Source: Sphingopyxis sp. FD7 (GTDB taxonomy: Bacteria > Pseudomonadota > Alphaproteobacteria > Sphingomonadales > Sphingomonadaceae). From it: DNA of 64,000 bases. Made by a program: the position numbers and the translations under genes. Position 1 is the first letter of the stretch, and every line of letters starts with the position of its first letter. This document shows, in pieces, positions 14,490 through 30,453 of the stretch. The notes beneath the pieces are model-generated. The model saw only the letters and a program-made list of their open reading frames with translations, was not told the origin of the DNA and ran no database searches. The stretch spans positions 3,038,001-3,102,000 of the forward strand of contig NZ_AP017898.1 in NCBI RefSeq assembly GCF_003609835.1, in the 5' to 3' direction.

Positions 14490-15305
14490 TCACAGCGAGA
14501 AGCCCTCGCCCAGATAGAGGCGCCGCACTTCGGGATCGGCGACGAGTTCGGCGGGCGATCCCGCCAGCAGCACCTTGCCGTCATAGATGATGCACGCGCG
14601 ATCGACGAGGTCGAGCGTCTCGCGCACATTATGGTCGGTGATGAGCACGCCGATGCCGCGCGTCTTCAAATCGGCGACAAGGTCGCGAATATCGCTGATC
14701 GACAGGGGGTCGATGCCCGCAAAGGGTTCGTCGAGCAGGATGATCGAGGGGTTGGCGGCGAGCGCGCGGGCGATTTCGGCGCGGCGCCGTTCGCCGCCCG
14801 ACAGCGCCATCGCCGCCGCATCGCGCAGCCGCGTGAGGCCGAACTCGTCGAGCAGCTCCTCGAGCCGCCGTTCGCGTGCGATCCTGTCGGGCTCGGCCAG
14901 CTCGAGCACCGCCTCGATATTCTGCGCCACCGTCATGCCGCGAAAAATCGACGTTTCCTGTGGCAGATAGCCAAGGCCGAGGATCGCGCGGCGATACATG
15001 GGCAGCGCGGTGATGTCGGCGCCGTCGAGCATGATGCGCCCCGCGTCGGGCTTTACCAGCCCCATGATCGAATAGAAGCAGGTGGTTTTGCCCGCGCCAT
15101 TGGGGCCGAGCAGCCCGACGACTTCGCCCTTGCCGACCGACAGCGAGACGTCCGACAGCACGACGCGTCTGTCATAGCTTTTGGCGATCGAAATGACCGC
15201 CAGGCCATTGCCCGCCGCGGCGTCGTCGCGGACGTGCGCGCGATGCTCGGCGACGCCATGATCATTTTCGGTCAGCGTGCCCGCAATGGATTCGTCGTCG
15301 GTCAT
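14490..15305 (-). CDS. lptB: LPS export ABC transporter ATP-binding protein LptB
   Basis: A 271-residue ABC ATPase that powers LPS extraction from the inner membrane with LptFG. It has Walker A GPNGAGKTTCFY, a Q-loop in YLPQETSIFRG, the signature LSGGERRRAEIARAL, Walker B IILLDEPFAG and the H-loop ITDHNVRETL. An N-terminal extension of about 30 residues exceeds E. coli LptB (241). Adjacency to rpoN supports LptB over a generic ABC ATPase. lptA/lptC, often directly upstream, are not seen here; the upstream gene is a phosphohexomutase. Confidence 0.94.
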   Translation of the reverse strand: MTDDESIAGTLTENDHGVAEHRAHVRDDAAAGNGLAVISIAKSYDRRVVLSDVSLSVGKGEVVGLLGPNGAGKTTCFYSIMGLVKPDAGRIMLDGADITALPMYRRAILGLGYLPQETSIFRGMTVAQNIEAVLELAEPDRIARERRLEELLDEFGLTRLRDAAAMALSGGERRRAEIARALAANPSIILLDEPFAGIDPLSISDIRDLVADLKTRGIGVLITDHNVRETLDLVDRACIIYDGKVLLAGSPAELVADPEVRRLYLGEGFSL

Positions 15306-15395
15306 AAAGCGGTCGGTTCCCGTCTGGCTTCGCTGCCGCGTTACCCCAGCGGCGGCGCCATGGTCAATCTGGCAAGCTTATTGCATCTCTGAAGC

Positions 15396-15415
15396 CCCTC
15401 CCCTTCAGGGGAGGG
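15396..15415. repeat. CCCTCCCC-TTCA-GGGGAGGG palindrome
   Basis: A perfect 8-bp stem with a TTCA loop between lptB and the phosphohexomutase gene. There is no T run on either strand, so it looks like a short extragenic palindrome rather than a classical terminator. Confidence 0.5.
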
Positions 15416-15425
15416 CGTCATCCCG

Positions 15426-16808
15426 CTAATGCCCCACGCTTTCCCCGCGCACGACACCCGACAGCGCCAGCTGCTCGTCGATCGCCGCCAGCAGCCGCGC
15501 CAGCGCCTCCTCGTCGGTCGCCTCGGCGCGCGCGACGAGCACGTCCTGCGTGTTCGAGGCCCGGAGCAGCCACCAGCCGTCGCCCGTCATCACGCGCGCG
15601 CCATCGGTGCGGTCGACGCGCGCGCCCGCCGCGGTCAGGCGCTCCAGAACTTCCTCCACAATGGCGAATTTGCGGACCTCGTCGACCTGAAAGCGCATTT
15701 CGGGGGTGTTGACCATCGGCGCCATGGAACCGCGCAGGTCGGTGACGCTCTTGCCCAGCTTCGTCGCCGCCTCGATCAGCCGCACCGCCGCGTAGGGCGC
15801 GTCGTCATAGCCAAAATAGCGGTCGGCGAAAAAAATATGTCCGCTCATCTCGCCCGCGAGCGGGCTGCCCGTTTCCTTCATTTTCGCCTTGATGAGACTG
15901 TGGCCGGTTTTCCACATCAAGGGCGTGCCGCCAAGCTCGGCGACGCGGTCGAACAGCGCCTGGCTCGCCTTCACATCGGCGATCACCGTCGCGCCGGGCA
16001 GGTCCTTCAGCACCGCGGCGGCATAGATTTGCAGCAGTTGGTCGCCCCAGATCACCCGGCCCTGGCCGTCGATCGCGCCGATGCGGTCGCCGTCTCCATC
16101 GAAAGCGACGCCGAAATCGAGATTCTTCTCGGCGACGAGCCTTTTGAGATCGGCGAGGTTCTTCTCCTCGGTCGGATCGGGATGATGGTTCGGGAAATGC
16201 CCGTCAATGTCGGTGAAAAGCAGGTGGTGCTCGCCCGGAAGCCTGGCGGTGAGCTTTTCGATGACGGCGCCTGCCGCGCCGTTACCCGCATCCCAGCCGA
16301 TGCGGAACGCGCCCCCGGCAAAGCCCTCGATCAGCCGGTCGACATAGGCGTCGACGACGTCGATGCTCTCCGCCGCGCCTTCGCCCGCCTCCCAGTCGCC
16401 CGCCGCGGCCATTTCGCCGATCCGCCGGATGTCGGCGCCGAAGAAGGGACGCCCCTGAAACACCATCTTGAAGCCATTATAGTCGGGGGGATTGTGGCTG
16501 CCGGTTATCTGTATGCCGCCATCGACCTGCTCGGTTGACGCGGCATAATAGAGCATCGGCGTCGGCCCCAGCCCGACGTTCAGCGCATCGACCCCGGCGG
16601 CATTGATCCCCGCGACCAGCGCCTCGGCGAGCATCGGCGATGAAAGCCGCCCGTCATAGCCGACCGCGATACGCCGACCGCCTGCACGGCGGATCAGCGT
16701 CGCGAAGCTCCGGCCGATGGCATAGGCATCCTTGTCGGACAGCGTGTCGCCGACGACGCCGCGAATATCATATTCGCGCAGCATCGTCGGATGGAAATCA
16801 TGGCTCAT
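15426..16808 (-). CDS. Phosphomannomutase/phosphoglucomutase (AlgC/ManB type)
   Basis: A 460-residue alpha-D-phosphohexomutase interconverting hexose 6- and 1-phosphates, feeding LPS and exopolysaccharide sugar nucleotides. It starts [14 protein letters not shown], shows the phosphoserine loop [15 protein letters not shown] (about 100-114), the metal loop [10 protein letters not shown], and the sugar-binding loop GEMSGHIFF. The length matches AlgC-type enzymes. Its neighbour lptB fits a cell-envelope theme. Whether mannose, glucose or both is the main substrate cannot be read from sequence. Confidence 0.93.
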
Positions 16809-16835
16809 CGTCGATCCTCTTTGCGGGAGAGAAGG

Positions 16836-17645
16836 TCAGGCGGCGGCGAAGAGATCGCCGTCGGGGTGCAGCCGCTCGCGCGCGGGCAGGTTGAGGCCGC
16901 CCATCGCCTCGCGAAGTTCCTGCCGTGCGACGACATGGCCGATCCCCATGCCGCCAAGATGCGCCTTGTCGAGCAGGGTGAGGCCGGCCGGGAAAAGCTC
17001 GCGATAGATGACGCGCTCGCCGAGCCCCGGGATGACGCGAAAGCCGACGCGGCGCGACAACTGGTTCAGCGCCTCGCCGACGCGGCGCATATTGTGCGCG
17101 TCGACATGCTGGAGGCGGTTGCGCAAAATGATCCAGTCGATCGTCCGCCCGTCGCTCTTCGCGCGCGCCTTGCGCGTGTCCCAGATGAGTTCGGAATAGA
17201 AGCTCGGCCGCGTCACCTGAAACGTTTCGGGATCGACCTGGCCGATCAGGTCGAAATCGATGAAGCTGTCGTTGATCGGCGTGATCAGCGTGTCGGCGCT
17301 GGTGGCGAGATGGCGTGCGAAGACATCGTCGCGCCCCGGCGTGTCGGCGATGAAATAATCGACCCCTTCCGACAATCGCGCGACCTGCGCGTCGAGTTCT
17401 TCGATCGTCGATCCCTCGAACACCTCGAACTGCGGGGTCGGCAGCACGATGTCGCGCCGCTTCGCGGTCTGTTCGCGATTCTCCAGATAGCGGTGAAAGG
17501 TGCGCTGGCGCGGGTCGAGGTCGATCCCCGCGACGCGCCAGCCCTGGCTCGCCAGCGCAACCGCGAAATGCACGGCGCAGGTCGATTTGCCCGTCCCGCC
17601 CTTTTCATTGGCAAAGATGATGCGGTGCGGTGCGGGCGTCGTCAT
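16836..17645 (-). CDS. mipZ: Division-plane positioning ATPase MipZ
   Basis: A 269-residue ParA/MinD-type ATPase with the deviant Walker A motif KGGTGKST (about 16-23), DLDPRQRTFHRYLENR, and the conserved ADTPGRDD segment. In Caulobacter, MipZ binds ParB near the poles and inhibits FtsZ, which restricts division to midcell. The size is normal for MipZ. The start at 17645 gives MTTPAPHRIIFANEKGGTGKS; longer in-frame readings run antisense through panC. It is divergent from panC, with 84 bases between start codons. Confidence 0.94.
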   Translation of the reverse strand: MTTPAPHRIIFANEKGGTGKSTCAVHFAVALASQGWRVAGIDLDPRQRTFHRYLENREQTAKRRDIVLPTPQFEVFEGSTIEELDAQVARLSEGVDYFIADTPGRDDVFARHLATSADTLITPINDSFIDFDLIGQVDPETFQVTRPSFYSELIWDTRKARAKSDGRTIDWIILRNRLQHVDAHNMRRVGEALNQLSRRVGFRVIPGLGERVIYRELFPAGLTLLDKAHLGGMGIGHVVARQELREAMGGLNLPARERLHPDGDLFAAA

Positions 17646-17729
17646 GAGCGTTGCGATTTTCCTGTTGGCGGCGCATGGGGGCCGCATCGGTGGTGTCTCA
17701 GCGCCGCCAATATCGGAGGGCGCCCGGCC

Positions 17730-18569
17730 GTGCAAATCATCCGTGACATCGCAATGCTCCACCGTGCCGTTACGGCACTGAAACAGGGCGGCAGGAGCGT
17801 CGCGCTGGTGCCGACCATGGGCGCGCTGCACGACGGCCATCTTTCGCTCGTCCGCATGGCAAGGCGCGTCGCCGATCACGCCGTCGTGTCGATTTTCGTC
17901 AATCCGACGCAATTCGGGCCGAATGAGGATTTTGCCGCCTATCCGCGCGACGAGGCGCGCGACGCCGCGCTGCTCGTCGACGCCGGGACGAGCCTGCTCT
18001 GGGCGCCCGACGTCGGCACCATGTATCCGGGCGGGCACAGTACGCATATCGAGGTTGCCGAACTCGGCGCCGATTATTGCGGCGCCGCGCGTCCGGGCCA
18101 TTTCGACGGCGTTGCGACCGTCGTTGCCAAATTGTTCAACCAGGTGCGCCCCGACATCGCGATCTTCGGCGAAAAGGACTGGCAGCAGCTCGCGATCATC
18201 CGCCGCATGGCGCGCGACCTCGATTTCGGCATCGATATATTGGGCGCGCCGATCGCGCGCGACACCGACGGCCTCGCGCTGTCGTCGCGCAACACCTATC
18301 TGTCGGACGGGCAGCGCGCGGCGGCGGCCGCCTTCCCGGCGGCGCTGAGCGCGGCGGCGAAGGCGATCGCGGGCGGCGCCGACGTTGGCGAAACGCTCGC
18401 CAAGGCCGAGGCCGCGATCGTCAGCGGCGGGTTCGACAGCGTCGACTATGTCGCGCTCGCCGATGCCGATAGCCTCGAACGGCTGATCAGCTTTCGCAAG
18501 CCCGCCCGCCTGCTGGCGGCCGCGCGGATCGGCAAGACGCGGCTGATCGACAATTGGCCGGTAGGCTAG
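17730..18569 (+). CDS. panC: Pantothenate synthetase
   Basis: A 279-residue enzyme joining pantoate and beta-alanine with ATP in coenzyme A synthesis. It shows the nucleotidyltransferase motif PTMGALHDGHLSLV (about 29-42), FVNPTQFGPNEDF, the FGEKDWQQL stretch and LSSRNTYLS. The start is a GTG at 17730, supported by GGAGGG at 17715-17720 with 9-base spacing and by the usual beginning (M)QIIRDIAMLH. panB is not adjacent. Confidence 0.95.
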   Translation: MQIIRDIAMLHRAVTALKQGGRSVALVPTMGALHDGHLSLVRMARRVADHAVVSIFVNPTQFGPNEDFAAYPRDEARDAALLVDAGTSLLWAPDVGTMYPGGHSTHIEVAELGADYCGAARPGHFDGVATVVAKLFNQVRPDIAIFGEKDWQQLAIIRRMARDLDFGIDILGAPIARDTDGLALSSRNTYLSDGQRAAAAAFPAALSAAAKAIAGGADVGETLAKAEAAIVSGGFDSVDYVALADADSLERLISFRKPARLLAAARIGKTRLIDNWPVG

Positions 18570-18613
18570 ACCCTGTTTGGTGCCAAAGCCGTAAACCCAG
18601 AAATCGACGCCAA

Positions 18614-19117
18614 TTACCCCCGGCAATCCTCGATCACCCGGCCGATTTCGGACTGCACCGGCAAGGTCAGCGCACCGCCACCCGGCGTTTCGAGCGCGAA
18701 GCGGCCGCGGCTGAAGGCGATGCGGTCGAGGCGCGGGTCGCGGCTGGGCAGCGTCGCGCTGCCGCGCTCGAAGCGGAGCTGGTCGGTGCCCGCGCTGGTG
18801 CGCAGGCTGACCGCCCCGTCGAGCGCCGAGGTCAGGCGGATGCCGCCGCCGCTGCACGCCATCGTCAGCAGCGGGTTGGCGCTGCCCGTCGGCACAAAGG
18901 CCGCGGTGCGACTGGCGGCGTCATAACGCCACGCGCCGCGATCCACCGCGCGGTCTTCCCATCCCAGCGTCGGGGTCGGCAGCGGCGCGGGGGGCGGCGC
19001 GGGCGCGACGGGCCGCGGCGCGGGGGGCGGGGCTTCGGGTTGCGGGATGGCGGCGCAGCCAGCGAGCACCAGAACGCCCGCCGCTACCGTCGCGTGGCGT
19101 AATCTCGTCCTGCTCAT
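18614..19117 (-). CDS. Lipoprotein of unknown function at the end of the MoxR operon
   Basis: A 167-residue predicted lipoprotein. The signal ends in the lipobox LVLAGC (Cys21), followed by a Pro/Ala-rich linker (about 26-50) and a beta-rich domain with two Cys, near residues 88 and 164, that could form a disulfide. The residue after Cys is Ala, so outer-membrane sorting is expected. It starts 2 bases after the nitroreductase stop and ends the long minus-strand operon; panC converges on it. I do not recognise the family. Confidence 0.7.
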   Translation of the reverse strand: MSRTRLRHATVAAGVLVLAGCAAIPQPEAPPPAPRPVAPAPPPAPLPTPTLGWEDRAVDRGAWRYDAASRTAAFVPTGSANPLLTMACSGGGIRLTSALDGAVSLRTSAGTDQLRFERGSATLPSRDPRLDRIAFSRGRFALETPGGGALTLPVQSEIGRVIEDCRG

Positions 19118-19119
19118 CC

Positions 19120-19821
19120 CTAAAATCCCTTCCAGTCGATCACTTCACCCAGCGGCGCGCGCGGCACCGGCCACTGGTTCACCGCGGCCGCTTCGTCGGC
19201 ATGGCCGATCGCGAGCCCGGTGAACAAAATCTGGTCGTCGCCCAGCCCGATCGACCGGCGCACGGTTGCCCCATACATGGCCCAGCATTCCTGCGGGCAA
19301 CTGGCAAGGCCCTGCTCGACGAGCAGCAGCATCACCGATTGCAGCCACATGCCCATGTCGGCCCATTGCGGCGGCCCCATGATGCGCGAGCAATGCAGGA
19401 AAAGCATCACCGGTGCGCCGAAACCCCGGTAATTGTCCATGAACCGAGCGAGCCGCCCCCTCTTGTCCTCGCGCGGGATGCCGAGCGAGGCATAGAGCGC
19501 CTCGCCGACGCCGAAGCGGCGGTCGGTCCACGGCGCGGTCAGTTCGGGCGGATAGATGTCATATTCGGGTTCCTGCCCCGCGCGTCCCATCGCGATCCGC
19601 GCGGCCACCGCATCCTTGACCGCCTGCCAGGGTTCGCCGGTCAGCACCGTCGCCTGCCACGGCTGGAGGTTGCCGCCCGACGGCGCGCGCTGCGCCGCCG
19701 CAAAAACCTGTTCGAGCAGCGCGGGGTCGACCGGCCGGTCGGTGAAGGCGCGGACCGAGCGCCGCCGGTGCAGCGCCTGCGTCACGCTCATGTCCGTCGC
19801 TGGCATGTCAGTCGCTGGCAT
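19120..19821 (-). CDS. Nitroreductase family protein
   Basis: A 233-residue FMN-dependent oxidoreductase. It has the FMN-phosphate motif RRRSVRAFTD (about 17-26), QRAPSGGNLQPWQ, and the C-terminal GLAIGHADEAAAVN loop. It probably reduces nitroaromatics or quinone-like substrates with NAD(P)H; substrate unknown. The start at 19821 has AGAGG 6 bases upstream in the minus direction and overlaps the RDD gene by 14 bases. A 15-base direct repeat gives the N-terminus MPATDMPATDMSV, with three candidate ATGs (19821, 19806, 19791). Why a soluble reductase is part of this membrane operon is unknown. Confidence 0.85.
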   Translation of the reverse strand: MPATDMPATDMSVTQALHRRRSVRAFTDRPVDPALLEQVFAAAQRAPSGGNLQPWQATVLTGEPWQAVKDAVAARIAMGRAGQEPEYDIYPPELTAPWTDRRFGVGEALYASLGIPREDKRGRLARFMDNYRGFGAPVMLFLHCSRIMGPPQWADMGMWLQSVMLLLVEQGLASCPQECWAMYGATVRRSIGLGDDQILFTGLAIGHADEAAAVNQWPVPRAPLGEVIDWKGF

Positions 19822-20674
19822 ATTTATCCTCTCGCCTTTTTCCGAACAGCAGGCCGCGTTCGAGCCGTGCTTTGAGCTGGCGGTAATAGGAAAGCAGGAA
19901 GACGTCATCCTCTTCGGCGACCGGGCGGCCGATCTTGGCGCGGATCGTGTCGGCAACCTCGCGCATCGCGCGCGCGTCGCGGTGACGCAGCACGCGCTCG
20001 AGCTCCTGCAGCTCGAAAATGCCGTAGACCGAAAGCTCGGCGTCGGTGAAGACCATCGCCTCGCCCGCGGCATCGACCGCGATGTCGGCGTCGAGCTTCG
20101 CGCGCTCGGCCATCACCACCCATGTCCCGGCGATCAGGTCGCCCATTCGCATCCGGTCGCGGTTGAACAGCAGGAACAGGCTCAAGGTCAGCGACCAGAG
20201 CACGCCCGCGAGCATCGTCCAGCCCGACACCATATCCTCCGCCGCGCCGACGCCGAGCATCATCAGCGGCAGGAACAGTTCGAGCTCGCGGATCAAATTG
20301 CGCGCGACCACCGCGTCGGCGGTGAGGCGTCCGCCGTCGCGCGCGACGACGCGAATGCCCATCAGCCTTTTGCCCGGCGTCGCCGCGCGCGCGCCGAGCT
20401 CGAAGCCGATGAACCAGAAGGTGCGCAGCACAAAGGCGCCGAGCATCCACACGACGACGGCGACGTCCGACTGCGACGCGATGCCGACCCACAGCATGAA
20501 CAGCGAGAAGAGAATGAGCGCCGCCAGGATCAGGAGCAGGTCGACGAGCAGCGCGCCGAAGCGCAGCCCCGCGCCCGCGATGCGCAGTTCGAGGTCGACG
20601 CCCTCGGGCGTCACGAACTGGCGGGTCTTTTTCGCCCTTGCGGCGCGCGCTTTGGCGTTGGCGGCCGCGGTCAT
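19808..20674 (-). CDS. RDD-family integral membrane protein
   Basis: A 288-residue protein with a basic N-terminus and 3-4 membrane helices. The RDD pattern is visible in AGLRFGALLVDLLLI (conserved Arg and Asp in helix 1, about 34-50) and around GKRLMGIRVVARDGGRLT. The C-terminal 90 residues are cytoplasmic and charged. RDD proteins have been linked to transport (some as Na+/H+ antiporters), but no specific role can be assigned. It overlaps the SpoIIM-like gene by 4 bases. It lies within the MoxR/DUF58 operon, where RDD proteins are frequent partners. Confidence 0.85.
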   Translation of the reverse strand: MTAAANAKARAARAKKTRQFVTPEGVDLELRIAGAGLRFGALLVDLLLILAALILFSLFMLWVGIASQSDVAVVVWMLGAFVLRTFWFIGFELGARAATPGKRLMGIRVVARDGGRLTADAVVARNLIRELELFLPLMMLGVGAAEDMVSGWTMLAGVLWSLTLSLFLLFNRDRMRMGDLIAGTWVVMAERAKLDADIAVDAAGEAMVFTDAELSVYGIFELQELERVLRHRDARAMREVADTIRAKIGRPVAEEDDVFLLSYYRQLKARLERGLLFGKRREDKYASD

Positions 20675-21711
20675 GCCGCGTCCCCGCGCCGCGGAATATA
20701 ATAATGGCCGAGCCAGAGCAGCAGCATGAGCGACCCGATCGCATAGCGCAGCATCGTGTCGGTGATGAGCTGGCGCCCGAAGCCTTCGAGCAGGCCCGCG
20801 GCGAGCAGCATCAGGATGACGCCGATCATCACCTTGCCCGCGGTGCGCCCTGCGGCGGCGGCGGCCTCCAGCCGCCCGCGCGCGCCGGGAAAGACGACCG
20901 CGGTTCCGATGCGCAGCCCCGCGGCGCCCGACAGCGCCGCCGCGAACAGCTCGGTCGTGCCATGGATGAACAGCCAGCCACCGAAATCGAATCCCAGCCC
21001 CTTGGCCGCAAAGACCGCCATCATCGCGCCGAGCCCGATGCCCTGGTAGAACTCCAGCATCATCGTCGGCACGCCGAAAGCGAAGCCGAGCGCAAAGGAA
21101 AGGATCGACACGCGGCTGTTGTGCGTGAACAAATAGGTGGCGAAGATGTGGAGGCCGCTTTCGCCCTCGCCCGCGTCCCTGCCATGGCCGAGCGTCGATT
21201 GCAGATATTCGGCGCTGGCGCGCGGGTCGCGGCCCGACGCCATGCCTTCGTCGACGAAATTATAATACCATTCGGGGTTGCTCGACACGAGCGAATAGCT
21301 GGTGAGCGCGCCGAGCAGGATGATAAGCGCGATGACGACCGTTTCCTTCCACACCGACCGCACGGCGGCGGGCCAGTCGGTGAGGAAGAAGCGGCGGAGG
21401 CGGTTCCAGCGGCTTTCGCGTACGCCATAGATGAGGAAATAGCCGCGGATCGACAGCGCCTCGAGATGCGCCAGCAGCGCCCTGTCGAGGCTGGTCGCGC
21501 GCGCGATCGACAGCGACGACAGGGTGGCGCGATAGAGGATCGGCAGTTGCAGCAATTCGTCGCTCGACAGCCCCTTCGCGCCCTTTTTTTCCAATTTGGT
21601 CAGCAGCCGGTCGAAGGCGATCCAGTCGGCTTCGCGCTCGGCGCGAAAGCGGCTGGTCGAGAAACTCGGCGCGTCGAGCGCGCGCGGCGCGGGAGGCGGC
21701 GGCGGGATCAC
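20671..21711 (-). CDS. Stage II sporulation protein M-like membrane protein
   Basis: A 346-residue protein: a soluble N-terminal region (about 1-110), then a SpoIIM/DUF95-type domain with 4-5 helices (for example VVIALIILLGALTSYSL, ILSFALGFAFGVPTMML, VMIGVILMLLAAGLLEGF). In Bacillus, SpoIIM acts with SpoIID/P in septal peptidoglycan remodelling. In non-sporulating bacteria the family typically sits beside MoxR and RDD genes and its role is unknown. ATGA overlap with the DUF58 gene (21708-21711). Confidence 0.85.
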   Translation of the reverse strand: MIPPPPPAPRALDAPSFSTSRFRAEREADWIAFDRLLTKLEKKGAKGLSSDELLQLPILYRATLSSLSIARATSLDRALLAHLEALSIRGYFLIYGVRESRWNRLRRFFLTDWPAAVRSVWKETVVIALIILLGALTSYSLVSSNPEWYYNFVDEGMASGRDPRASAEYLQSTLGHGRDAGEGESGLHIFATYLFTHNSRVSILSFALGFAFGVPTMMLEFYQGIGLGAMMAVFAAKGLGFDFGGWLFIHGTTELFAAALSGAAGLRIGTAVVFPGARGRLEAAAAAGRTAGKVMIGVILMLLAAGLLEGFGRQLITDTMLRYAIGSLMLLLWLGHYYIPRRGDAA

Positions 21712-23018
21712 AGGCTGCCCTGCCTTTTGATGCCCAGATAGGCCTCGACCGCGCGCGCCGCCATCGCATCGGCAGGAACCTCGATGACATCGGCACCGAG
21801 CCGCCGCAGCCGCGCGATCACCAGCTGGCGGTCGGTCAGCATCGCCGCGGCGACATTCGCGCGCGTGACGTCGGCGGCGCTGTCGGGGTGGCGGCGCTCC
21901 TCCGCCTCGACCTCCTCGTCGCGCATGGCGACGAAGAGCAGCCGATGTTTGCGCGCCAGCCGTCCCGCGGCGCGGATCATCAGGTCGGCGCTCGTCGCGT
22001 CGGCAAATTCGGTGAACAGGATGATCAGCGAGCGGCGGTTGAGCTGCGCGCTGAGCGTCGTCAGCGCGAGGGTGAAATTGCTCTCGACGGGCGCATAGTC
22101 GATCAGGCTCGCCGCGCGCTGCAACGCCGGAAAATCCTGCACATGCATATAGGCGGGGGTCAGCGCCTGCGGACTGGCGGCAAAGGAGAAGAGGCTGATC
22201 CGGTCGTTCAGTTTGAGCCCGACATAGGCGAGCAGCAGCGCCGCCGACACCGCGCGGTCGACGCGCGGCATCCCGCCGACCGGCTCCGCCATTGTCCGCC
22301 CCGCGTCGATCGCAAGCACGACGCGATTGTCGCGTTCGACGCGATATTCCTTGGCGAGCAGCCTGACGTGGCGCGCCGAGGCGTTCCAGTCGATCGCGCG
22401 GCGATCCATACCCGGCTGATATTCGGCGAGCGCCTCATACTCGCTGCCTTCGCCGCGCAGGCGCTGCTGGCGCAGCCCGAACCAGCTGTTCCGCTGGAAC
22501 AGCCGGCTGCCCTCGTCGGTCACCGCGCGCAGGCTGGGCACGACGGCGATCGCGCCATCGACCTGGAACCGGCGCTGTTTCCACACCAGCCCGAGCGGCC
22601 CCGCCCAGCGCACCCACAGCGCCATTATCCCTGCCTGCCCCCGCCGCTTTGCGGCGAGCGACAGCGTGCGGACGAGCGCATCGCCCGCACGGCGCATCTC
22701 GCCCGCAAGCCGCCCGCCTTCGGCCAGCCGCTCGTCGAGCGACAGCGCGATCTCGGCACGCGGCGGCAGGGCGCGGCCGCGTGCGACGAGCGACAGGTCG
22801 AAGGGGTCGCCGACGCCGACCTGCGCCGGAAAGCGCGCGTCGAGTGTGAGGTGGCGCGGATTGGCGCCCGTTATGGTGTCCAGAATCAGGCAGGCGACAA
22901 TGACCCCGATCCAGCCGGGCGCGACCAGCCACAGCTCGGGCCGCACCAGCCCGAGCGCGAGCGCCAGCGGCGCGCCCGCGAGCAGCAGATAGATGGCGCG
23001 GCGGGTGGGGTAGATCAT
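21708..23018 (-). CDS. DUF58 protein with von Willebrand-like domain
   Basis: A 436-residue protein with two N-terminal membrane helices (about 8-45) and a cytoplasmic DUF58/vWA domain. The hallmark EYQPGMDRRAIDWNASAR lies near residue 205-225. The MIDAS strand near residue 240 reads IDAGRTM, so the usual DxSxS is altered to D-x-G-x-T and metal binding may be weakened. DUF58 proteins are standard partners of MoxR ATPases. The start at 23018 has GGGAGG about 10 bases upstream. A 165-base inverted repeat separates it from moxR. Confidence 0.88.
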   Translation of the reverse strand: MIYPTRRAIYLLLAGAPLALALGLVRPELWLVAPGWIGVIVACLILDTITGANPRHLTLDARFPAQVGVGDPFDLSLVARGRALPPRAEIALSLDERLAEGGRLAGEMRRAGDALVRTLSLAAKRRGQAGIMALWVRWAGPLGLVWKQRRFQVDGAIAVVPSLRAVTDEGSRLFQRNSWFGLRQQRLRGEGSEYEALAEYQPGMDRRAIDWNASARHVRLLAKEYRVERDNRVVLAIDAGRTMAEPVGGMPRVDRAVSAALLLAYVGLKLNDRISLFSFAASPQALTPAYMHVQDFPALQRAASLIDYAPVESNFTLALTTLSAQLNRRSLIILFTEFADATSADLMIRAAGRLARKHRLLFVAMRDEEVEAEERRHPDSAADVTRANVAAAMLTDRQLVIARLRRLGADVIEVPADAMAARAVEAYLGIKRQGSL

Positions 23019-23022
23019 CGCA

Positions 23023-23187
23023 AAAGATCCTCCCTGTGCCGCAGGCATGGGGGAGTCGCAGACGGCGCGCAGCGCCAGCGGGACCGCCGCCGCAGGCGGT
23101 GGTGGAGGGGCCGCGACGGTAGCGCCATGGCCCCTCCGTCAGCCCTGCGGGCTGCCACCTCCCCATCGCTGCGCGACAGGGAGGATT
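23023..23187. repeat. Nested inverted-repeat element inside the MoxR operon
   Basis: The outer arms match: ATCCTCCCTGTGCCGCAGGC near 23026 against the reverse complement of the right edge (CAATCCTCCCTGTCGCGCAG read from 23177 leftward). Nested inside, GGAGGGGCC (about 23105-23113) faces GGCCCCTCC (about 23130-23138), and CCGCCGCCGCAGGCGGTGG forms its own hairpin. No ORF is credible. It looks like a non-autonomous REP/MITE-like element, with GGGAGGAT at its end doubling as the DUF58 ribosome-binding region. Confidence 0.65.
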
Positions 23188-23202
23188 GAATGCAGCCCCC
23201 AA

Positions 23203-24165
23203 TCACCGCGGCACATCCTCGCGTTCGAGCAGCGCGGCGACGACCTGTTCGACGCTGCGCCCCTCGATCTCGGCCGCCGCCGACAGGATGACGCGGTGGC
23301 GCAGCACCCCGGCGGCGAGGCGCTGGACATCGTCGGGGATCGCATAGTCGCGCCCGTCGAGCGCCGCCGCCGCGCACGCCGCGCGCGCGAGCAACGTCGC
23401 GGCGCGCGGGGACGCGCCGCATTCGAGGTCGGCGCTGGCGCGCGTCGCGCGGACGAGGCGGACGATATAATCGACAATCTCGTCGGCGAGCCGGACGGTT
23501 GCGATCGTGTCGATCGCCGCGCCGATCGCCGCGGCATCGGCGACCTGCGCGACACCGAAATCGCCGACCGCGGGACTTTTGAAGCGCCCGCCATGGTCGG
23601 CGACGATCCGCCGTTCCTCGTCGGCCGCGGGATAATCGACGACAAGCTTGAAGAGGAAGCGGTCGAGCTGCGCCTCGGGCAGCGGATAGACGCCCTGCTG
23701 CTCGATCGGGTTCTGCGTCGCGAGCACGGTGAAGCGCGGGCTCATCATATGCGGCTCGCCGTTGATGGTGACGCGGCGTTCCTGCATCGCTTCGAGCAGC
23801 GCCGCCTGCGTCTTGGGCGGGGTGCGGTTGATTTCGTCGGCGAGCAGCAATTCGGTGAAGATCGGCCCCTTGGTCAAGGTGAAACTGGACGTCTGGAAAT
23901 TGAACAGGTTGGACCCCAATATGTCGCCGGGCATCAGATCGGGCGTGAACTGGATGCGCCCGAAATCGAGCCCCGTCGCGCGCGCGAAGGCCTGCGCGAG
24001 CAAGGTCTTGGCGGTGCCTGGCGGGCCTTCGAGCAGCACATGGCCGCCCGCGAGCAGCGCAATCGTCACCATGCGCGTGAGCGGTTCCTGCCCGAACACG
24101 GCCTTGGCGACCTCGCCCTCGATCGCGGCGCCGAGCGCCTGAACGCTCTGGATATCAGCTGTCAC
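23203..24165 (-). CDS. MoxR-family AAA+ ATPase
   Basis: A 320-residue AAA+ ATPase with Walker A GPPGTAKT (about 47-54), [12 protein letters not shown], Walker [20 protein letters not shown], sensor 1 [12 protein letters not shown] and the LPEAQLDRF arginine-finger stretch. MoxR ATPases act as chaperones that remodel vWA-domain partners, here presumably the DUF58 protein. The GTG at 24165 is chosen because AGGAAGGA lies 8 bases upstream and the protein then begins [12 protein letters not shown]. It overlaps the DUF4350 gene by 11 bases. A longer ATG reading to 24333 is rejected. Confidence 0.93.
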
Positions 24166-25384
24166 GGAGTAGATCCTTCCTGATGGCGTGCAGCGCCTGG
24201 GCGTCTGCAAGAAATTCATGGGTGCTGCGCGCGAGCGGCAGGCGCCGCGCGAGGGCGGAAAAAGGCTCGCCGCCGCGCTGGTGCCGGTCGATCCAGGCGT
24301 CGGTCGCTTCGTCATCCAGCCCTGCGGGCGCATGCAGCCGCCGGGCGATCGCGCTGCGCTGGCTCTTCACATAGGCGGCGGCGCCGTCGATTTCGCGGCG
24401 CGCCTGTTTGATAAGGTCGGCGCTGTTCGCGATCAGCGCCGCCTTCGACACCGGGATCGCGCGACCGGGCCTCAGCGCCGGGCCGAAACGCGCCCACGCC
24501 TGCCACAGCGCGAACAGCCCCGCGGCGATCAGGCAGAGCGTGATGCCGATGAAGGGCGGGACGAAAGCGAAGCGCAGCAGCGAGCGCTGCGCGCCAAAGC
24601 CATTCAGCGTCAGGTCGAACGCCAGGCCGTCGGCGCCCGCATCCTCGGCGATCGCATCGAGCAGCGTCGCGGCGGCGGCGGCCCTGGCGCCGTTCGCAAA
24701 GGCCAGATTATTGACGAGGTCGGGGTCGGCGAGGATGTAGAGATTGCGATCGCGCACCCGCGCGAGCAGCGCCGATCCGTCCGATGCGGCGATCAACGGC
24801 TCCAGACGCGCGCCGCGTATCGTGTGCAGCTGACCAGGTTCGACAAGGCGGATGTCGCGTCCGCCGATGCGTCCGCGCGCATCGTCATTGCCCCACCGTG
24901 CGCGGCCCGCCTTGACGGGGCCGAACATATCCTCGGGCAGCAGCCGCGTCGGCGGCAGGAGCGCGATGCCGCTGCCGACCCAGCCGGGCTTCGGCGCCCT
25001 GGCGCCCGCGCGGCCCGCGGCCCATTTGGGGAGGATGACGAGAATCGGCGCGTCGCCCTGCGCCGTCAGAAGGTCGCGTATATCCTGCGCCCGCGTGCGC
25101 ATCGTCGGGGTCAGGATGACGAGCGAATCTGGCCCGTCATGGCGGCCCGGTTCCACCTTGCGCCGCAGTTCGACCGTGGCGCCCGCGCGCTCGGCGAGGT
25201 CGACGATCGCGGCATAGCCCGGCGCCGCCTTCGACAGCGCATGGCCGCCGCCGTCGTTGCCGCCGCCGATCTGCGGCCCCAGCGCGATCAGCGCCCAGAG
25301 CGCGATGAACGCGACGACGCCGATCGCGACGACCGCCGCGATCAGCCGCGCGTTGAAGCCCTGGTCGGCGGCGGCATCGGTCAT
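24155..25384 (-). CDS. DUF4350 membrane protein
   Basis: A 409-residue protein with an N-terminal helix (about 12-33), a large extracytoplasmic domain resembling GATase/ThuA-like DUF4350 (blocks [38 protein letters not shown]), a second helix ([20 protein letters not shown], about 277-296) and a cytoplasmic C-terminal tail. DUF4350 proteins regularly accompany MoxR and DUF4129. Function unknown. ATGA overlap with the upstream gene (25381-25384). Confidence 0.8.
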
Positions 25385-26091
25385 GCGCGCGTCCAGTTTC
25401 TGGCGACGGTGAGGTCAGCATAGGCGGCGCGGCACTGGTCCCACGCGCCGGCGTCGATCGCGCGCCCGCCGAACAGGCTGATTTCGACCGCGCGCGCGAT
25501 GCGGCTGAATGCGCCGCGCGCGACCGGCGGCAGGTCGCGCGCCTCGGCAAGGTCGCGCGAGGTGATCGCGGGTTTGACGAGGCCGGGGCGGCGCGTCTCG
25601 ATATCCTCGACGCTGCGATGGAGGAGCAGGTGCACCGCCTCGGCAAAACGGCCCGCGGCGGCGAGCGCGTCGGCCTCGGCGAGCAGCGCCCGCGCCGCGC
25701 CCGCCTCGGCCGCGCCCGCCCTGTCCGCGTCATCGGCATCGCTTCGGCGAGCGCGGAAACGCAATGCGTCGACCCAGCGCGCAAAGGCGGGAACGAAATG
25801 ATAGAGGAGGTACAGCGCGACGAGCGCCACCGCGACCCACATCAGCGGCTTCGCCGCGGGGGCGCTCCAGTCGAAAAAGCGGCCGATCGCCTCGTACAGC
25901 GACGTCAGCCATTCGGGCGGCGGCGCGGGCGGCGGAGGCGGCGGTGGAAAGGCCGTCTGGATCTCGCCCCCGGCAACAGTCTGGCTGAAGGCGGGGTCGA
26001 CCAGTTCGGGATCGAGCAGCCAGCCCCCCTCTCCCGCGCCGCGCGACGCGTCGGCCACGGCCGACGTCTGGGCGATCCACATGGATATCAT
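25381..26091 (-). CDS. DUF4129 membrane protein, first gene of the MoxR operon
   Basis: A 236-residue protein: an N-terminal extracytoplasmic part with a Pro run (about 49-59), one helix (PLMWVAVALVALYLLYHFVPAF, about 82-103), and a cytoplasmic DUF4129 domain with the typical ADALAAAGRFAEAVHLLLHRSVEDIETRRPGL-like block described here by its ends (residues about 140-171). It is the promoter-proximal gene of the eight-gene operon running to 18614. Start 26091 or 26082. Function unknown; in this gene family it is always found with MoxR-type neighbours. Confidence 0.78.
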   Translation of the reverse strand: MISMWIAQTSAVADASRGAGEGGWLLDPELVDPAFSQTVAGGEIQTAFPPPPPPPAPPPEWLTSLYEAIGRFFDWSAPAAKPLMWVAVALVALYLLYHFVPAFARWVDALRFRARRSDADDADRAGAAEAGAARALLAEADALAAAGRFAEAVHLLLHRSVEDIETRRPGLVKPAITSRDLAEARDLPPVARGAFSRIARAVEISLFGGRAIDAGAWDQCRAAYADLTVARNWTRA

Positions 26092-26257
26092 GTTGATAGG
26101 TCGATCTCGCCCCGCTCGGTCATCACCGAAGTTGGTAGCGCGAGCGTGCGTGGCAAGGCAAGAGATGCTTGCGCGCCGCGCGGCCCCGTTCTAGCGCCCG
26201 GCAAAATCGGTCGGGTGGTTACAACGGCAACCAGCGATCGAACGACAGGAGAGACAG

Positions 26258-28465
26258 GTGGACGCGGCGCAGGCGGTACATGAAAAATTCCTTGGCGCGC
26301 TGGCCGAAGGGCGATTGCCCGGCCGCGCCGATGCCCCCGACCCCGGCGCGATCGGCTTGTCGCGGGCAGAGGCGACCGACATCTTCCTGTCGCAGCTGAC
26401 CAGCCGCCAGATGGACCGGCTGTCGCGCCACCTGCAAGCGCGCGGCGAAGGATTCTACACGATCGGCTCGTCGGGGCATGAGGGCAATGCCGCGGTCGCC
26501 GCGGCGCTGCGCGTCACCGACATGGCCTTCCTCCACTATCGCTCGAACGCCTTTCAGCTGCATCGCGCGCGCCAGCTTCCCGGCGGGACGCCGACGTGGG
26601 ACATGCTGCTGAGCTTCGCGGCCTCGTGCGAAGACCCGATTTCGGGCGGACGGCACAAGGTCATCGGGTCGAAGCCGCTCAACATTCCCCCGCAGACCTC
26701 GACGATCGCCTCGCATCTGCCGAAAGCGGTCGGCGCCGCCTTTTCGATCGGCATTGCCCGCCGCCTTGGCATGAACGATCTGCCGCTGCCGGGCGACGCG
26801 GTCGTGCTCGCGAGCTTCGGCGATGCGTCGGCGAATCATTCGACCGCGCAGGGGGCGTTCAACACCGCGGGCTGGGCGGCGTTCCAGGGTTCTCCCATGC
26901 CGCTGATATTTCTGTGCGAGGACAATGGCATCGGCATTTCGACGCGCACCCCGACGGGCTGGATCGAGGCGCAGTTCGAGCGCCGCGCCGGACTCCATTA
27001 TATCCGGTGCGACGGCACCGACCTCGCTTCGGCATATAAAGGGGCGCGGGAAGCCGCCGATTACGCCCGCCGCACCCGCAAGCCCGTGTTCCTCCATATG
27101 GCGACGGTGCGCCTCTATGGCCACGCCGGGTCGGACGTGCAGGGGGCCTATCTCCCCAAGGCGCTGATCGAAGCCGACGAGGCGCGCGATCCGCTGCTGA
27201 AAGGCGCCGCGCTGATGATCGAGCAGGGGTGGATGAGCGCGGCGGACATCGCCGACGCCTATGAAACGATTGGCGCGACGCTGGCGCGGCAGGCCGAAGA
27301 CGCGATCCGGCGGCCCAAGATCACGAGCGCGGCGGGGGTGATGGCGAGCCTCGTCCCGCCCAGGCGCGAGGTGGCGCGCGCCAACGCGCCATCGGGCGAC
27401 GATCGCAAGGCGATGTTCGGCAGCGACTGGGGCCAGATGGACAAGCCGATGCACATGGCGCGGCTGCTGAGCTGGGCGCTCGCCGACCTGATGCTCGCGC
27501 ACAAGGAGATCGTCGTCGCGGGCGAGGATGTCGGGCCGAAGGGCGGCGTCTATAATGTCACCGCCAGGCTCCACCAGCGTTTCGGGTCGGCGCGCGTCGT
27601 CAACACATTGCTCGACGAACAGGCGATCCTGGGGCTCGCGATCGGCATGGCGCATAACGGCTTTCTGCCGATGCCCGAAATCCAGTTCCTCGCCTATGTC
27701 CATAATGCCGAGGACCAGATCCGCGGCGAAGCGGCGACCCTGAGCTTCTTTTCCAACGGGCAATATACCAACCCGATGGTGATCCGCGTCGCGGGGCTGG
27801 GCTACCAAAAGGGCTTTGGCGGCCATTTCCACAATGACAACAGCCTGGCCGTGTTCCGCGACATTCCGGGGGTGATCCTTGCGGTGCCGTCGAACGGGCG
27901 CGACGCGGTGCAGATGCTGCGCGAATGCGTCCGGCTGGCGCGCGAGGAACAGCGCGTCGTCGTGTTCGTCGAACCGATCGCGCTCTATATGACCCGCGAC
28001 CTGCACGAAGAGGGCGATGGGCTGTGGACGAGCGTTTACGAAGCGCCGGGCGAGGGCGCGCCGATCCGCCTCGGCGATGTCGGCGTCCATGGCGACGGCA
28101 CCGACCTCGCGATCGTCACCTATGGCAATGGATATTATCTGTCGCGGCAGGCCGAGAAACTGCTCGCCGAGGGCGGCGTCAAGGCGCGCGTGATCGACCT
28201 GCGCTGGCTGGGGCCGGTCGATGCCGACAGGCTGGTTGCCGCGGTCGGCGATGCGGGGCGCATCCTGATCGTCGACGAATGCCGCATCACCGGGTCGCAG
28301 AGCGAGGCGCTGATGGCGCTGTTCGTCGAGCGCACGCCGGAGAAGCGGCTGAAGCGCATCGCGGCGGACGACAGCTTCATCCCGCTGGGGCGGGCGGCGA
28401 CGCTGACCCTGCCCAGCCGCGATTCGATTGTCGCCGCGGCTCGCGAACTCCTCGCCCGGCGCTGA
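26258..28465 (+). CDS. Fused alpha-beta 2-oxoacid dehydrogenase E1-like TPP enzyme
   Basis: A 735-residue fusion. The N-terminal half resembles branched-chain 2-oxoacid dehydrogenase E1 alpha (TPP/Mg motif ASFGDASANHSTAQGAFN, then CEDNGIGIS). The C-terminal half (from about 395) resembles E1 beta (VAGEDVGPKGGVYNVT, VNTLLDEQAILGLAIGMA, GGHFHNDNS). It should decarboxylate a 2-oxoacid with thiamine diphosphate. No lipoyl E2 or E3 gene is near; the next gene is a FabD-like acyltransferase. The start is a GTG at 26258 preceded by AGGAGAG. Substrate unknown. Confidence 0.85.
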   Translation: MDAAQAVHEKFLGALAEGRLPGRADAPDPGAIGLSRAEATDIFLSQLTSRQMDRLSRHLQARGEGFYTIGSSGHEGNAAVAAALRVTDMAFLHYRSNAFQLHRARQLPGGTPTWDMLLSFAASCEDPISGGRHKVIGSKPLNIPPQTSTIASHLPKAVGAAFSIGIARRLGMNDLPLPGDAVVLASFGDASANHSTAQGAFNTAGWAAFQGSPMPLIFLCEDNGIGISTRTPTGWIEAQFERRAGLHYIRCDGTDLASAYKGAREAADYARRTRKPVFLHMATVRLYGHAGSDVQGAYLPKALIEADEARDPLLKGAALMIEQGWMSAADIADAYETIGATLARQAEDAIRRPKITSAAGVMASLVPPRREVARANAPSGDDRKAMFGSDWGQMDKPMHMARLLSWALADLMLAHKEIVVAGEDVGPKGGVYNVTARLHQRFGSARVVNTLLDEQAILGLAIGMAHNGFLPMPEIQFLAYVHNAEDQIRGEAATLSFFSNGQYTNPMVIRVAGLGYQKGFGGHFHNDNSLAVFRDIPGVILAVPSNGRDAVQMLRECVRLAREEQRVVVFVEPIALYMTRDLHEEGDGLWTSVYEAPGEGAPIRLGDVGVHGDGTDLAIVTYGNGYYLSRQAEKLLAEGGVKARVIDLRWLGPVDADRLVAAVGDAGRILIVDECRITGSQSEALMALFVERTPEKRLKRIAADDSFIPLGRAATLTLPSRDSIVAAARELLARR

Positions 28466-28474
28466 GATTCAAAA

Positions 28475-28562
28475 CCGTTCGCCCTGAGCTTGTCGAAGGG
28501 CCATCCCATATTTTGACGACGCAGAAGGAAGAACAGTGCTTCGACAGGCTCGGCACGAACGG
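28475..28562. repeat. GTTCG/TGTCGAAG inverted-repeat element
   Basis: The left arm 28475-28498 (CCGTTCGCCCTGAGCTTGTC, then GAAG) and right arm 28539-28562 (CTTCGACAGGCTCGGCACGA, then ACGG) are inverted copies with few mismatches. This is a well-known style of extragenic palindrome in many proteobacteria. It separates the E1 gene from the acyltransferase gene. Confidence 0.75.
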
Positions 28563-28576
28563 ATGAGGGGGTTGTG

Positions 28577-29632
28577 ATGACCGCAGCGAAGAAAACCGCG
28601 ATCGTCGTCGCGCCCGGCCGCGGCACCTATGGCAAGGGCGAACTCGGCAGCATCGCGCGGCTCCATGGTGCGCGCTTCGCCGAGCTGATCGCCGATTTCG
28701 ATGCCCAGCGCCGGATGCGCGGCCAGCCGACGGTGAGCGAACTCGACGGCGCCGAGCGCTTCAGCGTCGCGACGCACATGCGCGGCGATGTCGCGGCGCC
28801 GCTGATCTATAGCGCGACCGCGCTCGATTACCTCAGCATCGACCGCGACAAATATGACGTCGTCGCCGTCGCGGGCAATTCGATGGGCTGGTACAGCGCG
28901 CTCGCGCTGGGCGGCGCGGTGTCGATCGAGGACGGGTTCCGCATCGCCAATGCCATGGGGCTCAACAGCCAGACGCACGGCCCTGGCGGGCAGATCCTGC
29001 TGCAAGTCGTCGACGAAGACTGGCGACCGGTGCCGGGGCTGCGCGACCGGCTGCTGGGCCTCGTCGCGGCGATCGACGCGCGGCCGGGGCACGACCTCGC
29101 GCTGTCGATCGACCTTGCCGGGATGCTGGTGCTCGCGGGCAACGAGCAGGGTCTTGCCGCGCTGCTCGCCGAAGCGCCGCCGACGCCGGGGCGCGATCCG
29201 CTGCGCCTGGCGGGGCACGGCCCCTTCCATACGCCGCTGATGGTCGGCAGTTCGGACAAGGCGAAGGCCGAGCTGCCTGCGTCGCTGTTCGGCGGTCCCG
29301 CAATCCCGATGATCGACGGGCGCGGCCATGTCTGGCGGCGCTTTTCATCCGATCCGACAGAGCTATGGGATTACACCTTCGGCCACCAGATCCTCGCGCC
29401 CTATGATTTCGCCCTTTCGGTGCAGGTCGCGGTCAGGGAGTTCGCCCCCGACGTCATCATCCTGCCCGGCCCCGGCGACACGCTCGGCGGCGCGATCGCG
29501 CAGGCGCTGATCGGCATCAGCTGGCAGGGAATCGCCAGCAAGGCCGAGTTCGTGGCGCGGCAGGCGGCGGACCCGATCCTTCTGTCGATGGGGCGCGCCG
29601 AGCAGCGCGCGCTGGTCACCGCCAAGGAATAG
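28577..29632 (+). CDS. FabD-like acyltransferase (malonyl-CoA:ACP transacylase family)
   Basis: A 351-residue protein with the acyltransferase nucleophile motif AGNSMGWYSALALGG (Ser about 97) and the catalytic His in GHGPFHTPLM (about residue 215-220). The N-terminus starts IVVAPGRGTYGKGELG instead of the FabD FPGQGSQ pattern, so it is a distinct subgroup, not the housekeeping FabD. It may move an acyl group between CoA and a carrier. Pairing with the fused E1 enzyme suggests a shared pathway. The ATG at 28577 is preceded by GAGGGGG; a GTG one codon earlier is possible. Confidence 0.75.
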   Translation: MTAAKKTAIVVAPGRGTYGKGELGSIARLHGARFAELIADFDAQRRMRGQPTVSELDGAERFSVATHMRGDVAAPLIYSATALDYLSIDRDKYDVVAVAGNSMGWYSALALGGAVSIEDGFRIANAMGLNSQTHGPGGQILLQVVDEDWRPVPGLRDRLLGLVAAIDARPGHDLALSIDLAGMLVLAGNEQGLAALLAEAPPTPGRDPLRLAGHGPFHTPLMVGSSDKAKAELPASLFGGPAIPMIDGRGHVWRRFSSDPTELWDYTFGHQILAPYDFALSVQVAVREFAPDVIILPGPGDTLGGAIAQALIGISWQGIASKAEFVARQAADPILLSMGRAEQRALVTAKE

Positions 29633-29661
29633 GGCCGACAGGGAGCTTTCCCTGCCGGCCC
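29632..29661. terminator. Strong hairpin between convergent genes
   Basis: GGGCCG-A-CAGGGA (29632-29644), loop GCTT, TCCCTG-C-CGGCCC (29649-29661): a 12-bp stem with one mismatch directly after the acyltransferase stop. There is no T run, so termination is probable but not certain. Confidence 0.5.
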
Positions 29662-29799
29662 CGCCGTGCGCGCACAGCCAGGTGGGGTTGACCGGACGCG
29701 AATGAACGGACGCGCCAATGGGGACCAACACAAGGGCGCCATGCCGTTCCCGATCCTTATAGCGCAGACCGCGCAAGAACGGCCGCCGCGGCCGCGCGA

Positions 29800-30453
29800 T
29801 CATGCGCCGAAATGGACCCGATTGCCCGGCGCCGCGCGCGCCGCTTCGGCGACGAAGCGCAGGTGCAGCAGCTCGGCGACATTGCCCGCGCCCGCGCGGC
29901 GCATGATGTTCGCGCGGTGGACCTCGACCGTGCGCGGGCTGAGGTCGAGCCGCCGCGCGATCGCCTTGTTGCCGAGCCCGGCGGCGATGCCGTCCAATAT
30001 GTCGCGCTCGCGCGGAGTGAGCGCGGCGAGCCGCGCCGCGGCCGCGCGCTGACGATCGCGCGCCGCCTGCCACGCCGCGCGCTCGGCAAGCGCGGCGTCG
30101 ATCGCGCGGCGGACAAGGTGCGGGTCGAGCGGCGCGGGCAGCAGGTCGCGCGCGCCTGCCAGCAGAATAGCGCGCGATTCGGCGACGCTGAGCCGTTCGG
30201 CGGCGACGAAGGCGGCGATGCCGTCGCGCGCGGCTACGTGCGAAAGCAGCGTCGCGCCATCGCTCACCCCCGGCTGTTCCCAGCGCAGCAGCAGCACCGC
30301 GCAGCTTTGATCGTCGCCCGCCGCGAGCCAGTCATCGCCGCTCGCAAAGCCGCGCACGACGCGCGCCGCGCCCGCCGCCAGCACGCGAAAACAGGCCGCG
30401 CGCTCGACCGGGTCGGGAAGGATCAGGTGGATATGGCCGCAGGTTCCGGTCAC
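29800..30453 (-). CDS. FixJ/NarL-type regulator with degenerate receiver
   Basis: A 217-residue two-domain protein. The C-terminal LuxR helix-turn-helix is clear (LTPRERDILDGIAAGLGNKAIARRL, then SPRTVEVHRANIMRR; about 144-190). The N-terminal region has the receiver layout, but the beta-3 strand reads CAVLLLRWEQPG, with no phospho-acceptor Asp, and the acidic pocket residues are missing. It is therefore probably not controlled by phosphorylation. The GTG at 30453 gives a receiver-like start. Longer starts (GTG 30525 with GAGGGA, or 30573) are possible but approach the terminator at 30577-30606. Targets unknown. Confidence 0.7.
   Translation of the reverse strand: MTGTCGHIHLILPDPVERAACFRVLAAGAARVVRGFASGDDWLAAGDDQSCAVLLLRWEQPGVSDGATLLSHVAARDGIAAFVAAERLSVAESRAILLAGARDLLPAPLDPHLVRRAIDAALAERAAWQAARDRQRAAAARLAALTPRERDILDGIAAGLGNKAIARRLDLSPRTVEVHRANIMRRAGAGNVAELLHLRFVAEAARAAPGNRVHFGA

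Follow-up and report, generated by a model that had tools for sequence, protein, structure and literature searches.

A conserved MoxR operon of Sphingopyxis, probably a relative of Pseudomonas arc2, ends in nitroreductase and lipoprotein genes

We analyzed a 64,000-nucleotide stretch of the genome of Sphingopyxis sp. FD7 (hereafter the window; host genome of 3.94 Mb in 2 contigs), whose minus strand carries, from 26091 to 18614, eight co-directional open reading frames (ORFs) in the order DUF4129-DUF4350-MoxR-DUF58-SpoIIM-RDD-nitroreductase-lipoprotein. The operon is real and conserved, and it belongs as a variant to a system that is known but poorly understood. The reading that we favor, with some reserve, is that two modules share one transcription unit: a six-gene AAA+ machine of the inner membrane and a nitroreductase and lipoprotein that work separately from it. 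The eight ORFs, their order and their near-contiguity had been claimed by a first-pass annotation of this DNA and are borne out by the coordinates and by Pfam matches for seven of the eight proteins, all above the curated cut-off (Table 1); no Pfam family exceeded its curated cut-off for the lipoprotein. That annotation had also described the genes as nearly all overlapping or a few bases apart, which holds for most junctions (overlaps of 4 bases at DUF4129/DUF4350, 11 at DUF4350/MoxR, 4 at DUF58/SpoIIM, 4 at SpoIIM/RDD and, if translation starts at the first of three closely spaced in-frame ATGs, 14 at RDD/nitroreductase, with a 2-base gap between nitroreductase and lipoprotein). It passed over the sole wide junction, the 184 bases between MoxR and DUF58, which are occupied by a repeated hairpin element.

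The first six genes are a conserved unit

By tblastn and profiles combined, every one of the 26 relatives' loci read within the order holds the complete core, its six genes co-directional and in unchanged order. These loci represent 26 of the 27 SpoIIM matches other than the window's own; the remaining one (G023), a fragmentary match near a contig end, was omitted. DUF4129 was detected by profile only in four loci (L045, L046, L048 and L051), and the training set of that profile took in 25 of the 27 loci, so possibly some of these four. In a sample of 200 genomes from the phylum, SpoIIM exceeded the Pfam cut-off in 24, comprising 17 new loci, five same-family loci already among the 26, the host genome itself and one match that was omitted (G253). 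SpoIIM clusters with MoxR in all 17 of the further loci; after a filter that removes overlapping frames, 15 of them have DUF58 listed and 14 have RDD. Three of the 17 have the order seen here, and 14 have what we call the Pseudomonas order, in which SpoIIM lies ahead of MoxR. The locus of Pseudomonas alcaliphila (L179) reads RDD-SpoIIM-DUF4129-DUF4350-MoxR-DUF58, each Pfam family being above its cut-off; relative to Sphingopyxis, two gene blocks are swapped. That the six genes stay together despite this two-block rearrangement argues for one machine. In a tree of 35 MoxR proteins, which leaves out three of the 33 MoxR matches as having no locus, the two gene orders form two firm clades (support 100/100 and 100/99). 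We conclude that the first six genes are an old set common to very different bacteria.

Two contigs of metagenome-assembled genomes labelled Prosthecobacter and Verrucomicrobiales (L202 and L207) carry RDD-SpoIIM-MoxR in the Pseudomonas order; the system may extend beyond Pseudomonadota, or these bins may be mixed. In one Sphingopyxis genome (G177, locus L130) the nitroreductase match is broken in two and contains a stop. Three other genes there, DUF4129, DUF4350 and the upstream gene for a dehydrogenase-like protein, are likewise split in two, reflecting either decay or sequencing errors.

A very probable Pseudomonas counterpart, arc2

In Pseudomonas aeruginosa, PA4317-23 has been named antagonism resistance cluster 2 (arc2, with genes arc2A-G), and a MoxR-like ATPase is mentioned for it together with a protein carrying a VWF domain (PMC8926400; eLife 2022). 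The term DUF58 is absent from that paper, and a search of the open-licence literature found no paper with SpoIIM and DUF58 together with MoxR. We compared the cluster through the paper's PA4320 and PA4323 knockout primers, which translate to FGFYIMN, LTDASV, TQNPIE and MKPS. In proteins of Pseudomonas-order loci these peptides fall, respectively, within SpoIIM, at the start of DUF4129, within MoxR and at the start of DUF58. Among 106 loci, which span 5-17 kb and are often too short to reach all genes, FGFYIMN occurs in 104 (by construction, as the records were fetched with the PA4320 primer pattern), LTDASV in 41, TQNPIE, a general MoxR motif, in 39, and MKPS, short enough to arise by chance as in L235, in 36. 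In L135 and L137, some 510 bases separate the PA4323 start primer, matched with up to 5-6 mismatches in 28, from the MoxR primer. It is thus very probable that PA4320 encodes the DUF4129 protein and PA4323 the DUF58 protein, and we conclude that arc2 is very probably the Pseudomonas version of this system.

The two clusters share SpoIIM, DUF4129, MoxR and DUF58, judging from the primer peptides and related Pseudomonas loci, and also RDD and DUF4350 in L179, so that all six families stand in one co-directional cluster on both sides (on the Pseudomonas side via L179). They differ in that RDD-SpoIIM comes first in Pseudomonas and last in Sphingopyxis and in that no nitroreductase or lipoprotein was seen with arc2, which is under Gac/Rsm control. 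Given the swapped blocks, we call the Sphingopyxis operon a related variant, not arc2 itself.

A mycobacterial MoxR cluster, Rv3689-Rv3695 or, in Mycobacterium smegmatis, MSMEG_6606-6612, looks like a third form of the system by the annotations in two papers. In one, Rv3691 is annotated as DUF4350, Rv3692 as MoxR, Rv3693 as DUF58, Rv3694c as stage II sporulation protein M and Rv3695 as RDD, and in a table for M. chelonae the homologues of Rv3689 and Rv3691-Rv3695 all go down together, with similar negative values (PMC8191103). In the other, MSMEG_6606-6610 and 6612 are listed in the SigF regulon (PMC4694148). By annotation, then, DUF4350, MoxR, DUF58, SpoIIM and RDD occur there under neighboring tags and change together, with the difference of a SigF link in M. 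smegmatis. Three little-understood and differently named operons (arc2, the Rv3692 MoxR cluster and that of Sphingopyxis) appear to be one system, and the measurable arc2 phenotype offers a direct test of the alphaproteobacterial copy.

A putative AAA+ machine of the inner membrane

The MoxR protein is a MoxR-type AAA+ ATPase, with an AAA_3 domain, intact Walker A and B motifs and an AAA_lid_2 domain; the Walker A Lys-Thr, the Walker B Asp-Glu and the TQNP motif are invariant in 27 of 27 aligned rows. It is the only AAA_3 match of the host genome at E<=1e-20. Seven searched genomes of other classes in the same phylum have three or four AAA_3-type MoxR proteins each. RavA-ViaA is similar in pairing a MoxR AAA+ protein with a VWA partner; RavA is a remote relative of the operon MoxR (E 4.7e-6) and is not known to have a SpoIIM, RDD or DUF4350 gene beside it. 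Against a defence-system library, MoxR had nothing better than weak, generic AAA matches (best E 4.5e-4), and the other seven proteins had no match.

The partners of MoxR appear to be membrane-bound. DUF58 has an N-terminal hydrophobic hairpin (residues 7-52) followed by a VWA-like domain. The DUF4350 domain (50-242) is flanked by hydrophobic segments at 8-42 and 268-298, and the DUF4129 protein consists of a Pro-rich N-terminal part, a hydrophobic segment (77-105) and the DUF4129 domain (173-224). All 33 aligned SpoIIM rows (29 with the gene order seen here and 4 with the Pseudomonas order) share N198, H250, E254 and E309, residues that lie in long helices of the predicted structure (mean pLDDT 87.6). 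The VIA-align rows of SpoIIM are of the kind common for helical proteins.

From these features we propose that the core is the form taken in Sphingopyxis by a widespread AAA+ machine of the inner membrane. MoxR rings would dock on the cytosolic VWA-like domain of the membrane-anchored DUF58 and use ATP to remodel the membrane proteins SpoIIM and RDD. Judging from hydrophobicity, DUF4350 may be an outward-facing sensing domain and DUF4129 a transmembrane protein with a cytosolic adaptor. The first-pass annotation had seen in the set a membrane-bound chaperone machine of unknown client. The invariant MoxR motifs and the intact core support a membrane-bound MoxR/DUF58 machine, whose function is not wholly obscure, the Pseudomonas version very probably being arc2. 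Loss of arc2 lowers survival of P. aeruginosa against an attacker with a type VI secretion system; survival of arc2-deficient cells is significantly restored if the attacker has no ColA, which is predicted to form pores in the inner membrane, and survival under four general stresses is normal upon arc2 loss (PMC8926400). By analogy with this genetic evidence, which comes only from Pseudomonas, the core would protect the inner membrane from breach, for example by the pore-forming toxins of rivals, and ATP-driven protection from membrane damage is its most likely function here. A bolder version, which we put forward only tentatively, is that the system is an ancient, modular, ATP-driven defence against membrane breach in Alpha- and Gammaproteobacteria and mycobacteria, in which SpoIIM, with its invariant Asn, His-x3-Glu and Glu, presumably in membrane helices, would be the working element gated by MoxR/DUF58.

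Two other functions of the core have to be weighed. It could be a chaperone that inserts a metal or cofactor into one membrane enzyme, arc2 protection then being indirect; the well-studied MoxR/VWA pair NorQ/NorD acts as such an insertion chaperone (PMC9976466). We consider this unlikely, although the arguments against it are weak. Outside the genus, none of the window's flanking genes that we tried is found again next to the core, among neighbors of which only these were surveyed, and the first MIDAS (metal ion-dependent adhesion site) motif of DUF58 is degenerate, reading D-x-G-x-x-M. In 26 of 27 rows Gly replaces the first serine of the motif, so metal binding by the VWA domain may be altered. 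Alternatively, as the family name would suggest, the core could act at the cell wall by recruiting peptidoglycan hydrolases, as Bacillus SpoIIM recruits SpoIIP and SpoIID (PMC5898192). This we judge very improbable: neither SpoIID nor SpoIIP, the partners in the Bacillus DMP complex, is found among the eight operon proteins (the only ones checked), and SpoIIM of non-spore-formers appears to act otherwise, standing beside vWA and AAA+ genes in several bacteria (PMC5898192).

Nitroreductase and lipoprotein are linked to the core only within the genus

The nitroreductase shares 186 of 231 residues (80.5%) with NfnB of Sphingopyxis sp. HMH (PDB 7DP0), a reductase of dinitroaniline herbicides (PDB 7DP0-7DP2; PMC8484813). 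This close relationship and the retention of the wall residue Tyr88 place it in the PnbA subgroup with NfnB. The main text of PMC8484813 does not state the gene context of NfnB ('operon', 'gene cluster' and 'genome' have 0 occurrences each). The operon provides the NfnB family with its usual genomic home in Sphingopyxis, which probably does not define its function. The lipoprotein begins with a signal-like segment ending in LAGC, which we read as a lipobox, followed by a Pro-rich linker and a beta-rich domain in which C88 and C165 are invariant in 28 rows. Its predicted fold resembles IalB (Bartonella henselae IalB, 3DTD) in structure only and at a borderline level, with no Foldseek match at E<=0.001.

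Inside the genus, linkage of this tail to the core was tallied in 80 genomes. Of these, 74 have a close nitroreductase match (the others being G151, G153, G159, G181, G182 and G188), 73 have RDD and 72 have both, counting as present a cut or split RDD in G136, G149 and G171 and the split nitroreductase in G177; the two genes are neighbors in all 72. The lipoprotein accompanies the nitroreductase in 74 genomes and adjoins it in 65. Six of the nine misses look like contig breaks, with the lipoprotein gene in two pieces or, in G148, a contig end beside the nitroreductase, and three are real separations (G085, G114 and G129). Two genomes, G139 and G192, keep the pair where neither RDD nor SpoIIM was found; the nitroreductase of G139 directly faces the dehydrogenase-like gene, and the pair of G192 is located elsewhere.

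Outside the genus, the tail is linked to the core in 0 of 22 loci. Among the 26 loci of the order, nitroreductase adjoins the core in 4, all of the same genus, and lipoprotein in 2. Of the 118 genomes of the order, 34 have a nitroreductase relative (E<=1e-25); ten genomes outside the genus have both such a relative and the core, side by side in none. Lipoprotein relatives also occur unlinked to the core in other genera; among the 120 listed, those named by organism are from Sphingopyxis, save one metagenome-assembled genome named to class only. Within the family, a nitroreductase relative is found in 11 of 19 genomes with the core and in 11 of 16 without it (Fisher p 0.73). For the lipoprotein, the corresponding counts are 18 of 19 with the core and 12 of 16 without (p 0.16).

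The suggestion of the first-pass annotation that these genes are clients or effectors of the machine is therefore not borne out, the nitroreductase being as frequent without the core and the tail being kept without it in two genomes of the genus; the linkage that was to be checked in relatives exists inside the genus (72/72) and fails outside it (0/22). A reading in which both are nonetheless working parts of the machine in this genus, as folded or exported clients or as effectors detoxifying some nitro or quinone compound that enters in the course of an attack, would draw on the invariable RDD-nitroreductase adjacency, the gene overlap in 13 of 14 loci and the 65 of 74 lipoprotein adjacencies. 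We find it quite improbable in view of the 2 of 80 genomes with a tail but no core, the 11 of 16 family genomes with a nitroreductase relative alone, the unlinked lipoprotein relatives in other genera and the separations in G085, G114 and G129; moreover, purified NfnB works as a homodimer (PMC8484813). We conclude that both tail genes were added later in this genus and are also found where the machine is absent. They probably share transcription with the core, not mechanism, and the tail is genus-specific and probably transcriptionally coupled, yet evolutionarily separable. On the two-module reading, the pair would have joined the 3' end in this genus, probably on the same transcript given the overlap; the nitroreductase would be an FMN/NADPH reductase like NfnB and the lipoprotein an envelope protein, both independent of the machine.

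Several points weigh against the two-module reading as a whole. The core is patchy: of the 118 genomes of the order, SpoIIM was detected in 28. Its two MoxR clades are deep, and support for setting them jointly against 19 other MoxRs is modest (77/81), so the two may have diverged in function. The predicted SpoIIM fold has no Foldseek match in the PDB at E<=0.001 and no solved relative of it was found, which is no proof of a new fold. The identity of arc2 rests on primer peptides in other species, with no P. aeruginosa among 104 named records, and a DUF975-like gene precedes the Pseudomonas-order clusters examined (L145 and L137), with no equivalent seen in Sphingopyxis-order loci as far as it was looked for. 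Across the order, core and nitroreductase co-occur above chance (both in 15 of 118 genomes, p 0.0017), and core and lipoprotein more strongly so (18 genomes, p 9e-7), a co-occurrence for which the family split largely accounts. Finally, the open-licence literature yielded no experiment on this operon in Sphingopyxis.

A TspO-like gene, so read from its sequence, recurs beside lipoprotein relatives in 10 of 23 loci. The Pro-rich linker of the lipoprotein gene (18960-19060 of the window) seems to break assemblies, since 6 of 80 genomes of the genus have the gene in pieces or truncated; one genome (G138) has an inverted two-copy contig around the gene (L134). Apparent clusters of conserved neighbors around unlinked nitroreductases were largely shadow frames, and we make no claim from them.

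Gene junctions and upstream region

Table 1. Features of the operon and its borders, in window coordinates.
Feature	Coordinates	Strand	Remarks
DUF4129 membrane protein	25381..26091	-	236 aa; Pfam DUF4129 29.9 bits
DUF4350 protein	24155..25384	-	409 aa; Pfam DUF4350 43.8 bits
MoxR AAA+ ATPase	23203..24165	-	320 aa, GTG start; Pfam AAA_3 205 bits
Palindromic repeat element, MoxR/DUF58 gap	23019..23202	.	RNA fold and genome repeat matches
DUF58 protein	21708..23018	-	436 aa; Pfam DUF58 77.6 bits
SpoIIM-family integral membrane protein	20671..21711	-	346 aa, GTG start; Pfam SpoIIM 108 bits
RDD-family membrane protein	19808..20674	-	288 aa; Pfam RDD 69.6 bits
Nitroreductase	19120..19821	-	233 aa; Pfam Nitroreductase 85 bits
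Lipoprotein	18614..19117	-	167 aa; signal-like segment, lipobox
Divergent upstream region, shared with dehydrogenase-like gene at 26258	26092..26257	.	palindrome 26158-26172

The element in the MoxR/DUF58 gap folds as RNA at -114.3 kcal/mol (z -5.1; 40 of 182 first-look candidates were scored). It has 50 reported matches in the genome, all others partial, marking it as a dispersed palindromic repeat. Among 14 loci of the genus that were measured, MoxR and DUF58 share a 4-base stop-start overlap in 10 and lie 10 bases apart in L034; the window's element recurs at this junction in L033 and L124, and L032 has an unrelated palindrome there. A different palindrome at the same spot suggests that the junction tolerates hairpin insertions. 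In the one locus of the 14 in which RDD and nitroreductase do not overlap, L035, they are 32 bases apart.

A scan for sigma-70-like promoters on both strands of 18400-26400 found 0 (0.8 expected by chance), which is weak evidence; no EcfG-type promoter was found upstream of DUF4129 in ten loci of the genus, and Rfam had no match over 15000-30000. The 166 bases upstream of DUF4129 contain a palindrome, GCAAG-N5-CTTGC, that is single in the window. Both arms are intact in nine of ten aligned loci of the genus (with a spacer of 6 in L128), L125 being one base off, and no clear copy was seen upstream of DUF4129 in the more distant loci L034, L035 and L122. The arms could be facing -35 elements or an operator. 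Read from sequence, with no family-library run, the divergent gene beyond this region is dehydrogenase-like, and the convergent gene downstream of the operon, which ends at 18569, is panC.

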